DNA of 60,252 nt from NCBI GenBank assembly GCA_019637875.1, contig JAHBUW010000020.1, positions 1 to 60,252 of the forward strand, written 5' to 3'. The number at the start of each line of letters is the position of its first letter. Position 1 is the stretch's first letter. This document shows, in pieces, positions 14,711-18,603 of this stretch. Under the pieces are notes generated by a model that was not told the origin of the DNA, made no database searches, and saw nothing but the letters and a program-made list of their open reading frames with translations. The DNA is from Pseudobdellovibrionaceae bacterium. GTDB lineage: Bacteria > Bdellovibrionota > Bdellovibrionia > Bdellovibrionales > Bdellovibrionaceae. The position numbers were made by a program, and so were the translations under genes.

Positions 14711-15106
14711 TTATTGATTGGTGCCGATGACGCCGAAGTAGCCTGCGGAGCCGGGGCCGGTGATGGCGCTGCCGCCTTTGTGTTTCACCGAGTAGAGGAC
14801 CGTCGCCTCGCCGCCGCTTCGGAGGAATGTGTTGTAGGCGCTGTACACGACTTGATTGCCGAACGGATCGCTGCAGTAGTTGAACCACTCGACCGCGCGT
14901 TGGGCGCAGCGGGCGGCGTTGTTTTGCGCCATCGGGTCACCGTCTTGGTACCAGCCCAGAGCGGGGTGATAGCCGAGGTTGTTGTGGCAAGGACGGGTGA
15001 CGTGGATGTAGCACTTGCCGTTCGGGCCGTCGGCTTTCGCCACTTCGCCGATGAGGGCGCTGAGAGCCAGAACCGAGACCGCGATCATCATCTTGAGTTG
15101 TTTCAT
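14711..15106 (-). CDS. Secreted hypothetical protein, Cys-containing
   Basis: From ATG 15106 the protein has 131 residues. It begins with a signal peptide (MKQLKMMIAVSVLALSALIG, then cleavage near VAKA-DG). The mature part of about 105 residues contains four Cys residues (in GKCYIHVTRPC, ARCAQRAV and WFNYCSDP), which could form two disulfides. No family is recognised. The start is chosen for the strong AAGGGGAAGCAG sequence upstream; the longer frame to 15202 would place a hydrophilic stretch before the signal. It is likely exported to the periplasm or beyond. Confidence 0.7.
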   Translation of the reverse strand: MKQLKMMIAVSVLALSALIGEVAKADGPNGKCYIHVTRPCHNNLGYHPALGWYQDGDPMAQNNAARCAQRAVEWFNYCSDPFGNQVVYSAYNTFLRSGGEATVLYSVKHKGGSAITGPGSAGYFGVIGTNQ

Positions 15107-15313: not shown

Positions 15314-15814
15314 CTAGCGGGCGGGGCGGCGTGAGCTGGAGGTCGGACGTCGGGGCGATTTCACCACGGGTTTGGCCGCGTTCGGTTTGAGACGACGTGT
15401 GGACTCATTGTGTTTTGCCGCAATGGTGTTCACGCATTCGAGTTCGGCGTCGTTGTAGTTCGCGACGTACAGCGAGAGCTCGGTGGGCATCGGCGGAAGC
15501 GACGCCCGGGCGCCGCGAAGTTCGAGATTCACGACCTGGACGTAGTTGACGTTTTTTTCGCGACGGAAGTGGGTCGTCGTGCAGTCGCAAACCTGATTCG
15601 TGAGCTCTTCATTCTGTTTGAAGTCGGGAGTGAGGGTGGCGACGGCGTGCGAGATCCGCCGCACGCAAAGTCCACGGTAGGCGTCGAGTTGCGTTTGGAG
15701 TGTGGTGCGGGCCTTCCCTAGCCAAGGCGACGGATCGAATGGCGGGAAGTCCGAGTTCCCCAGGGCCGGGAGCGCGCAGAGCGTGGAAAAAAGAAGGGCC
15801 ACCCGAGCTTTCAT
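15314..15814 (-). CDS. Secreted small partner protein, copy 2 of the duplicated M23 module
   Basis: The 166-residue protein has a signal peptide (MKARVALLFSTLCALPALG). Its mature domain contains CVRRISHAV, VCDCTTTHF and YVQVVNLELRGARASLPPMPTELSLYV. It ends in a basic, Ser/Pro/Arg tail. The middle segment matches the gene at 16995-17543, where the equivalent reads CKCVIRFF and YVQIVNMELRGALKSMPALPAELSMYL, so the two are paralogues. The start two bases after the stop of the pseudo-M23 gene implies co-translation. Function is unknown. The fixed pairing with M23-type proteins suggests a chaperone, inhibitor or cofactor of the peptidase. Confidence 0.75.
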   Translation of the reverse strand: MKARVALLFSTLCALPALGNSDFPPFDPSPWLGKARTTLQTQLDAYRGLCVRRISHAVATLTPDFKQNEELTNQVCDCTTTHFRREKNVNYVQVVNLELRGARASLPPMPTELSLYVANYNDAELECVNTIAAKHNESTRRLKPNAAKPVVKSPRRPTSSSRRPAR

Positions 15815-15816
15815 CT

Positions 15817-16998
15817 CTAGCGGGTACCTTCGTTCCATTTCGGGGGAACGGCGAAGCTGTCTGAGCGAACATGGTCGCGGCTATGATCGGAGGCGGTGGC
15901 GCTACAGCGGGAGTTCTTACTGGAGCCTTCGGCGAACCGAGTGATCGCGCACTCATACGTTTTCGTCAGCGCCACTTTGTCCGGGGTCGTTCTCATCTCG
16001 AAAGCGATCTTCGACTTTTTATCGGTTTTCGTATGGCCGATCTTCGTGTCTTTGGTCACGTCGGCGGGGAGGGTGGTGAAGTTCGTGTCCTTAGGGCACT
16101 TCCCATCTTCACCGACATCCAGGTCTCCGTAGGACGAATAGCAGGGCCCACTGGCGGCGACGCCGACGATGGGACAGGTGTCGTGCTTGATGACGACCCG
16201 GCATTTGTAGGCGGTATTTTTGTCGATCGCGACGATTTTTCCGGATGCGATCGGGTAGACGTTGATGTTCTGTCCGCCACCTTTTTTGACCTGCAGTTGC
16301 AGGGCGTAAGGGCCGCCGGCGGCGGGATCCGAGGTGCAAGATTTGAGTTGAAGGCCCGAGCGGAACGGCGGCGTGATTTTGTCCTTGTCGGCGTCCTTAT
16401 AGTCCGCACATTTTTTCGCGTCGGCCTGATCGTTGCGGACCGCCGGGGTGGCGTTCGCCGGATTGCTGCTGGTCGACGCGGGCGTGGTATTCGCCGCGGG
16501 AGTCGTATTGTTATTGGTGGTGGACGCGGTGTTCGGGTTGTTGTTGGTCGCGGCCGTATTGGTCGAACCGTTCGTTTTGGCTCCGCCTCCGCCCAGGGCG
16601 CTCGCGAGCGCACCGAGGAGCATGGGGAGCATACTTTGATCGCTCGAAGTGGTGGGGACGATGCCCGTCACGGCCGTCGCCGCGACGACGGGCGTGACGA
16701 CGCCCCCGCGACCGGCGCTCAGTAAAGTCGCCGTGTTGTCAGAGGATCTACCGGTCACTGCGGTCAAGCCGGTTCCGGCGGTCTGGCCGGGGATCGCGGA
16801 CTTCGTCGCTCCGCCGTCAGTTCCGTAAATTTCCGGACTGGCTCCGCCGCCCGTGGTGGTCGTGCCGTCGACGGGTGCCGTGGTTTGAACGCTGAGTCCT
16901 TCTTCGCGAACGACGCGACGAGATTTCTGCGCGAAGGCCGCAACCGCGGTCGAGGCGAAGACGAGGGCCATCATTCCGGCGACGACGCGGGTGTTCAT
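15817..16998 (-). CDS. Secreted M23-like pseudo-peptidase, copy 2
   Basis: The 393-residue protein has a signal peptide (MNTRVVAGMMALVFASTAVA), a low-complexity Asn/Thr/Ala linker (about residues 140-190) and a C-terminal LytM-like region. This aligns with the upstream active copy at INVYPIASGKIVAID, KCRVVIKHDTCP, GPCYSSYGDL and FEMRT. All zinc and catalytic positions are lost: no HxxxD motif, YAHL is replaced by YGDL, and HLHFEVR is replaced by KIAFEMR. It should bind but not cleave peptidoglycan, or serve a purely structural role. The ATG overlaps the stop of the preceding small gene. Extra Cys residues near the C terminus (YEC, SRC) are specific to this copy. Confidence 0.8.
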   Translation of the reverse strand: MNTRVVAGMMALVFASTAVAAFAQKSRRVVREEGLSVQTTAPVDGTTTTGGGASPEIYGTDGGATKSAIPGQTAGTGLTAVTGRSSDNTATLLSAGRGGVVTPVVAATAVTGIVPTTSSDQSMLPMLLGALASALGGGGAKTNGSTNTAATNNNPNTASTTNNNTTPAANTTPASTSSNPANATPAVRNDQADAKKCADYKDADKDKITPPFRSGLQLKSCTSDPAAGGPYALQLQVKKGGGQNINVYPIASGKIVAIDKNTAYKCRVVIKHDTCPIVGVAASGPCYSSYGDLDVGEDGKCPKDTNFTTLPADVTKDTKIGHTKTDKKSKIAFEMRTTPDKVALTKTYECAITRFAEGSSKNSRCSATASDHSRDHVRSDSFAVPPKWNEGTR

Positions 16999-17543
16999 TC
17001 ACGGGCCTCGCTTTTGTCCTTTTGCGGACGGTGAGGAAGATGGGGCTTGGATTTGTCGAGGGGCCGCATCTTGTTCTTTTTCTGATCGGCGTGACGTCGA
17101 GCCTCTTCTTGTTCGGCGCGCTGATCCAGTTCGGTTTGGCTCACGTGACGAGGATTGGCCTCGCAAGCGGCGCGCGGGGCTTCCCATTCCTCGAGGTACA
17201 TGGACAGTTCCGCGGGAAGCGCGGGCATGGACTTCAGCGCTCCGCGAAGCTCCATGTTCACGATCTGCACGTACATGGGATCGTCTTTCGCCTTGAAGAA
17301 TCGAATGACGCATTTGCAGTGATCGCGGGTCCACTGTTCGGCGACGTCGTAAGGTTTTTTCTTTTTCTCGATCTGCGGAAGGTAAAAACGCTCACAGGAC
17401 TGCTGGAAGTTCTTCAGCAGTGTGGGCATATCCTTCGGCTCACGACCGACCCATTGATTGTAGTCGATATCTTCCTGCGCGAAAGACAGCGTCGAAAAAA
17501 GCAGAGCCACCGTGAGAACGATCCATGTTTTAGTTGACGCCAT
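16995..17543 (-). CDS. Secreted small partner protein, copy 1 of the duplicated M23 module
   Basis: From ATG 17543 the protein has 182 residues. A signal peptide (STKTWIVLTVALLFSTLSFA) precedes a domain with CERFYLPQI, HCKCVIRFF and the shared YVQIVNMELRGAL segment. It ends in a long, strongly charged Lys/Arg/Glu-rich tail (from about residue 140). No family is recognised. It overlaps the 3' end of the M23 gene by 14 bases and its own TGA overlaps the start of the pseudo-M23 gene, so all four genes are coupled. The basic tail could bind nucleic acid, lipopolysaccharide or teichoic-type polymers. That is speculation. Confidence 0.75.
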   Translation of the reverse strand: MASTKTWIVLTVALLFSTLSFAQEDIDYNQWVGREPKDMPTLLKNFQQSCERFYLPQIEKKKKPYDVAEQWTRDHCKCVIRFFKAKDDPMYVQIVNMELRGALKSMPALPAELSMYLEEWEAPRAACEANPRHVSQTELDQRAEQEEARRHADQKKNKMRPLDKSKPHLPHRPQKDKSEARE

Positions 17544-18603
17544 TTGTGTTACGTCCTCCAGGTGTTTGCATGCGGGCGGGGGCCCGGCCATTGCCGACGG
17601 TCCCGCAGCTGCTCGCCTCGTAATTGTAGTTCGAGTGCGCTTGCCATTCACGGAAATGCGTGACGGGATCTTTCGCGGTGGAGCTTTCGGGGCCCGTGCG
17701 GACCTCGAAGTGCAGATGCGCGCCGTCGCTCGCGCCGGTATTCCCCATGGTGGCGATCTTCGTGCAGGCGTTGACCTTTTGACCTTCGCCGCCGGGACAG
17801 CGTCCATTTTCTTTCTTCAAATGGGCGTACTGAGAATAACACTTGTTCCCGCCGATGGCGGCGGGGCAGGAGTCGTGCTCGATAATGATCTGGCAGCCGT
17901 AGCCTCCCGCGACGCCGGCTTTGATGATCTTTCCGGGAGCGACGGGATTGATGCTCTTCGAGCCCTCCATCACCATATCGATGCCGTTGTGGTGGCGTCC
18001 GCCTTTGCTGGCGCGTGAGCCGAAACAACTTGTCACTCGGAATTTTTCTTTGCTGGGCGGCTGCCATGTTTTTCTGGTTTCGGAGCAGTCGCGGTCCCGG
18101 ACGTTGGTGTCTTGCGGCAGCGGCGCATTGGAGGTCGGCGTGTCCGCGGAGGTCCCCGGGGTCGTGCCGTTGTTGACCGGATTCGTTCCATTGGTCGTTC
18201 CCGTCGTCGTCCCGGTATTCGTTCCCGTGTTCGTGCCGGTGTTGGTTCCGGTGTTGGTCCCGGTCCCACTCGCGGCGGGTTGTCCCTGTCCCGAAAACGC
18301 GCTCATCAGGCCCTGCAGCATTTGCATCTGGTCTTGATTCGTTGCTCCGGTTGTTCCCGTGATCGCCACCACGCCGGTGCTTGCGGTGGGGTGGGCGGGT
18401 TTGGGCTGCCAGCCGATGCCCGCCGCCGAAGTATCAACGACGCCGCCCGCGACGGGATCTTTTTTCGCAGTCTCGTCGACTTTGACGGAGGTCTGAGTGG
18501 CGAGGTCGCGTTTCAGCACGCGCTTCGAACGCTGCGCGTGCGCGACGTGAACGGAGCTCACCGCAAGAAACACCGAAAATAAAATGAGAATATGGCGATT
18601 CAC
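17530..18603 (-). CDS. Secreted M23 (LytM-type) peptidoglycan endopeptidase, copy 1
   Basis: The predicted enzyme cleaves peptide crosslinks of peptidoglycan using one zinc ion. From GTG 18603 it has 357 residues: signal peptide (MNRHILILFSVFLAVSS...AHA), a disordered region with a perfect Thr-Gly-Thr-Asn repeat (about 114-141), and a C-terminal M23 domain. Metal and catalytic residues are intact: HNGID (His205, Asp209), YAHL (His near 261) and HLHFEVR (His296, His298). The GTG start is preferred because AGGGG lies nine bases upstream and the signal peptide then begins at once; the frame extends to 18711. It heads a four-gene coupled set. In a predatory bacterium such enzymes may act on prey wall, but the target is not shown here. 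Confidence 0.85.
   Translation of the reverse strand: MNRHILILFSVFLAVSSVHVAHAQRSKRVLKRDLATQTSVKVDETAKKDPVAGGVVDTSAAGIGWQPKPAHPTASTGVVAITGTTGATNQDQMQMLQGLMSAFSGQGQPAASGTGTNTGTNTGTNTGTNTGTTTGTTNGTNPVNNGTTPGTSADTPTSNAPLPQDTNVRDRDCSETRKTWQPPSKEKFRVTSCFGSRASKGGRHHNGIDMVMEGSKSINPVAPGKIIKAGVAGGYGCQIIIEHDSCPAAIGGNKCYSQYAHLKKENGRCPGGEGQKVNACTKIATMGNTGASDGAHLHFEVRTGPESSTAKDPVTHFREWQAHSNYNYEASSCGTVGNGRAPARMQTPGGRNTNGVN

Follow-up and report, generated by a model that had tools for sequence, protein, structure and literature searches.

M23 peptidases cut cell walls and need restraint, and to our knowledge few dedicated protein partners have been found for them. Active and degenerate M23 pairs, degenerate LytM activators and gene pairs in which an inhibitor follows its enzyme have each been described separately. 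In Helicobacter pylori, csd1 and csd2 encode an active and a degenerate M23 protein that form a heterodimer (PDB 5J1L/5J1M; PMC5053510). Csd2 has lost its metal ligands and binds Csd1 (PMC5053510), and both the activity and the stability of Csd1 require Csd2 (PMC12468929). The degenerate LytM regulators EnvC, NlpD, ActS and DipM have the M23/LytM fold and no catalysis, and they act on another hydrolase (PMC9662197). In Bdellovibrio, the gene for the wall endopeptidase Bd3459 is followed just downstream by the gene for the exported inhibitor Bd3460, which binds and inhibits Bd3459 and thereby protects the predator's own wall (PMC4686830).

The window analysed here was a 60,252-nt stretch of DNA from a Pseudobdellovibrionaceae bacterium (contig JAHBUW010000020.1). 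An earlier note on this DNA had described four overlapping or abutting minus-strand genes in the order M23, partner, M23-like, partner, and this arrangement was borne out with all four open reading frames intact. In the order of transcription the genes encode M1 (17530..18603, 357 aa, GTG start), P1 (16995..17543, 182 aa), M2 (15817..16998, 393 aa) and P2 (15314..15814, 166 aa), all on the minus strand. The genes for M1 and P1 share 14 nt, those for P1 and M2 share 4 nt (ATGA), and a gap of 2 nt separates M2 from P2. Given this tight spacing, the four genes very probably form one transcript. The start of P2 was best set at 15814, instead of 15838 as in the earlier note, because translation from there yields a normal signal peptide and leaves the 2-nt gap after the M2 stop. 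By eye, all four proteins begin with a segment resembling a signal peptide. The set is bordered by an isocitrate dehydrogenase gene (named by eye; 18944, plus strand) and, just downstream, by the gene for a small exported cysteine-containing protein of 131 aa (14711-15106, minus strand) that had no Pfam match and lies outside the partner family. Scans for promoters and terminators found none above chance.

M1 is an exported, cysteine-rich M23 peptidase and is apparently active. The assignment draws on its codon usage, on a match to PF01551 with an E-value of 2e-18 (66.8 bits against a cut-off of 28.7), and on the complete M23 ligand set of HxxxD, second histidine and HxH, which was located at HNGID (17977-17991), YAHL (17818-17829) and HLHF (17707-17718) on the minus strand. 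At the corresponding sites of M2 (16288-16311, 16120-16131 and 16000-16011, minus strand) every zinc and catalytic ligand has been lost, with A and Q in place of the H and D of the first motif, D in YGDL, and K and A in KIAF. Pfam did not recognise M2 as an M23 protein, and the ligands expected of an M23 peptidase are absent from it, yet the copy remains alignable, as had been proposed from the sequence. The cores of M1 and M2 are 30% identical over 149 aa (E 3e-17), far above chance when compared to shuffled sequences (Z 24), and the similarity of the N-terminal regions is borderline (Z 5.6). Seven of the eight cysteines in M1 are present in M2. The codon usage of M2 is that of a genuine gene, with a GC3 of 0.75 and a CAI-like value of 0.62 compared to 0.26-0.40 in the shifted frames, and so is its codon-position composition. 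A simple decaying pseudogene was ruled out by the stop-free frame and the normal codon usage. Because M2 is intact, codon-typical and disulfide-conserving despite its low identity to M1, it appears to be an old copy that has nevertheless been maintained. The loss of all ligands and the occurrence in one genome only could also be read to mean that M2 and P2 are a redundant duplicate, functionless and in the process of being lost. We consider this very improbable, since neutral decay over 70% divergence would break the frame, whereas M2 has kept an intact 393-aa frame, host-like codons, a signal peptide and its cysteines.

The core of M2 was modelled with its relatives as the alignment, which gave a moderate pLDDT of 57.8 with the barrel better than the ends. 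When the model was searched with Foldseek, the first row was one chain of 5j1l, the Csd1-Csd2 dimer (E 2.2e-5), the next was the LytM domain of EnvC, and all 44 rows up to an E-value of about 0.01 were M23/LytM structures. The LytM domain of DipM was also among the matches. A VIA comparison gave Z 12.4 (rmsd 3.1, 132 residues) against 3nyy and Z 11.2 (rmsd 3.5, 122 residues) against EnvC (4bh5). Because the Foldseek rows and the VIA scores all point to M23/LytM structures, M2 is predicted to have the M23/LytM fold. The possibility, raised earlier, that copy 2 aligns better with a non-M23 fold was ruled out, as the structural matches were to M23/LytM only.

Like Csd1 and Csd2, whose locus numbers are consecutive (HP1543/HP1544), M1 and M2 are two M23-fold paralogues of which one is active and one is without metal ligands, and they are neighbours, but with a partner gene between them. 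KIAF in M2 has a lysine at the first histidine of HxH, as does Csd2, and in both cases the degenerate copy is confined to a narrow lineage. In contrast to the Csd proteins, M2 has lost all ligands, M1 and M2 carry several disulfide cysteines, and a cysteine-rich partner family is linked to them. The Csd proteins dimerise via helical domains that are not seen in M1 and M2, and no separate helical domain was evident in the moderate-confidence M2 model. EnvC, NlpD, ActS and DipM resemble M2 in having a non-catalytic M23/LytM fold, and the domains of EnvC and DipM match the M2 model. However, the enzymes that these regulators activate are amidases, and their architecture includes coiled-coil or LysM parts, whereas M2 adjoins an active M23 protein and was not recognised by their family models.

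The relationship between the two partners, which had been noted from the CxC motif and a common segment, extends to four cysteines at identical residue numbers (50, 76, 78 and 127). P1 and P2 are homologous, with 32% identity (E 1e-19) and Z 26 against shuffled sequences. The CxC motif reads CKC in P1 (17310-17318) and CDC in P2 (15581-15589), and the common segment reads YVQIVNMELRGA in P1 (17238-17273) and YVQVVNLELRGA in P2 (15509-15544), all on the minus strand. The partner core was modelled as all-helical (pLDDT 92.6, pTM 0.81). In the model, the cysteines are spread over three of the long helices (the first, the second and the last), which is consistent with two disulfides stapling a helical bundle. 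The partner sequence matched no Pfam, NCBIfam or PHROG family, and there was no convincing PDB or viral match to the fold. We do not claim a new fold, because VIA Z scores of at most 4.6 reflect common helical arrangements only. All partners have a net basic C-terminal tail, and the motif KSPR[RK] within it is common to P2 (KSPRR, 15347-15361, minus strand) and a third partner (locus L008, 5936-6430). The tail is possibly a groove- or wall-binding element.

The CxC motif also fits a partner that acts as a folding or export chaperone for the cysteine-rich M23 protein, possibly in disulfide formation, in which case M2 would be an independent wall binder that needs its chaperone. That M1 and M2 are both disulfide-rich and have both kept a partner would suit such a fold-dependent role. 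This explanation is nonetheless distinctly unlikely, as the partner model is a helical bundle without a thioredoxin-like match, the four invariant cysteines fit structural disulfides equally well, and other cysteine-containing M23 proteins (with four cysteines) are found without such a partner.

The pair of M23 gene and partner gene recurs. A third pair was found on another contig of the same genome (L008), where an active M23 protein of 468 aa with a weak SH3-like N-terminal match is directly followed by a partner-type gene. A gene for a trypsin-like serine protease lies directly after this pair (L008 4981-5952, minus strand). The fourth pair comes from a second genus within the family (G008, on MAG contig PSRN01000215.1, which carries the label Bdellovibrio sp.), and the gene for a protein that looks serpin-like by eye lies two genes away from it (L074 295-1755, minus strand). 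The fifth pair was found in a further genus (G018). The association holds in both directions: the M23 subfamily has five members (M1, M2, M3 and the G008 and G018 proteins), each with a partner-type gene directly after its own, and each of the five partner genes found lies behind such an M23 gene. Each partner is exported, lies directly downstream of a cysteine-rich M23 gene and has the signature C-x25-CxC-x48-57-C, in which the four cysteines are invariant. P1, P2 and the third partner aligned without gaps over 95 columns with the four cysteines in register. Otherwise the partners diverge very fast, with only 9-28% identity to P1. The G008 partner is hardly similar to P1 in a pairwise comparison (Z 0.3) and scores Z 5.0 against the G018 partner, so that it was assigned to the family by its cysteine spacing, its position and the link to the G018 partner more than by sequence.

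The M23 subfamily was scored with a four-row profile and compared to samples of the order and the phylum. The four active members reached 204-259 bits, and the next matches in the order and phylum samples reached 56-66 bits. Since everything else sampled stayed at or below 66 bits, the subfamily is, on profile scores, distinct, and it is patchy, with members in 3 of the 66 genera of the order. The linkage was controlled by scanning open reading frames of 100-300 aa for the pattern C-x21-28-CxC-x44-60-C, and no partner-type frame was found at 40 control M23 loci (163 open reading frames) or at 46 further loci (226 open reading frames). When a looser pattern was applied to 82 loci in 16 genomes, almost all of them surrounding other M23 genes, only six open reading frames fitted it, and by eye none of these resembles an exported protein downstream of an M23 gene. 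These scans agree with the earlier suggestion that the partner is dedicated, and not with partners scattered independently of M23 genes. Because the sequences diverge so fast, partners elsewhere may have been missed, and their absence at other loci is tentative. A separate group of M23 proteins, marked by four conserved cysteines (GGCxxGRxSCNGGAGN), is present in several genera of the family (L155, L186 and L188) and had no partner-type neighbour at these loci. The partner family and its strict tie to this M23 subfamily appear to be undescribed.

Searches of 100 relatives with the P1 and P2 sequences gave no convincing homologue, but these negative searches are weak because a three-row partner profile (A2) missed the G008 and G018 partners. 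A search of genome contigs with M1 gave no match, and a search of genome contigs with profile A4 recovered PSRN01000215.1, the G008 MAG contig, together with three further M23-type loci. The one of these three that was checked (L075) lies beside genes that look flagellar by eye and has no partner. None of the viral contigs matched. No homologue of M2 was found in 60 relatives, except for one marginal match broken by stop codons, or among 359 genomes of the phylum. The conserved four-gene order for which the earlier note called was therefore found in this genome only, whereas the two-gene pair does recur elsewhere, and this single-genome occurrence limits the weight that the dead copy can carry.

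In G018, the M23 gene and its partner belong to an array with a second hydrolase-partner-like pair (L206, G018:C1, 7677-11068, minus strand). The array begins with a 350-aa exported protein whose N-terminus is 72% identical over 115 aa to the downstream M23 protein and whose C-terminal part is an unrelated Cys/His domain. By eye this domain appears CHAP/NlpC-like, but it matched nothing in Pfam, NCBIfam, PHROG or PDB. An exported CxxC protein of 142 aa is encoded 3 nt further on, followed by the M23 protein and the partner. The similarity of the N-terminal regions of M1 and M2 to G018 was not significant. The array supports a modular, effector-like view of hydrolase-partner pairs. A broader reading is that relatives of Bdellovibrio have a new, modular wall-hydrolase family with cognate disulfide-stapled helical inhibitors for self-protection, in which the catalytic domain can be swapped under a common N-terminal module and a maintained pair of pseudo-hydrolase and inhibitor works either by titration, as a decoy, or as a regulatory subunit; we regard this as speculative and doubtful.

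The strongest rival explanation, self-protection, draws in part on this modular pattern, in which two exported proteins with a shared N-terminus are each followed by their own small exported protein. Here, the M23 enzyme would be a weapon or prey-wall cutter, the partner would be its cognate periplasmic inhibitor acting as an immunity protein, and M2 would act as a decoy or would buffer the inhibitor. The tightly coupled order of enzyme and then partner and the very fast divergence of the partners around fixed cysteines are as expected from such a system, and bd3459/bd3460 is a direct precedent (PMC4686830) from the same bacterial group, with an exported wall endopeptidase and a small exported partner encoded downstream, as for M1 and P1. 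However, Bd3459 is a PBP-type DD-endopeptidase and not an M23 enzyme, its locus has no dead enzyme copy, and Bd3460 has ankyrin repeats whereas the partners here are a different helical bundle; none of the five partners had an ankyrin match in Pfam. In addition, a delivery system, toxicity and a predatory habit have to be assumed here, and P2 and the segment that it shares with P1 have been retained even though M2 offers no activity for an inhibitor to block. We consider self-protection of this kind rather unlikely, and it is not mutually exclusive with the explanation that we prefer.

The retention of P2 by a copy that cannot cut suggests that the partners act on a feature common to M1 and M2 outside the active site. 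It favours an escort, stabiliser or assembly factor over an active-site plug, and a role for M2 as a subunit or regulator. Our preferred explanation, which we hold tentatively, is that the module was duplicated as a pair, that copy 2 became a non-catalytic subunit or regulator, and that the partner is a binding escort or restraint. The ancestral unit would be a two-gene module that encoded a peptidoglycan hydrolase of the M23 type, exported and rich in disulfides, together with its own small exported helical partner, and this module would have been duplicated in tandem as a unit. The trees for both the M23 proteins and the partners group copy 1 with copy 2, and co-duplication of the two genes is indicated by the Z scores of 26 and 24 together with the agreement of both trees, whose support was under the threshold. 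Copy 1 would have stayed the active enzyme, and the partner would most likely bind the hydrolase in the periplasm and escort or restrain it until it is delivered to its target or needed. Copy 2 would have lost catalysis and kept its fold, disulfides and partner. M2 would then most likely be a non-catalytic subunit or regulator that assembles with copy 1, as Csd2 does with Csd1 and as degenerate LytM proteins act on other hydrolases.

The claim that no described system has this layout was too strong in view of csd1/csd2 (PMC5053510) and bd3459/bd3460 (PMC4686830). What appears to be undescribed is a partner that has been kept by a dead M23 copy. The partner family, together with a dead copy that has its own partner, offers a direct test of what the partner targets, namely the active site, as an inhibitor would, or the body of the enzyme, as an escort or subunit would. 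The answer may bear on how predators avoid digestion of their own wall.
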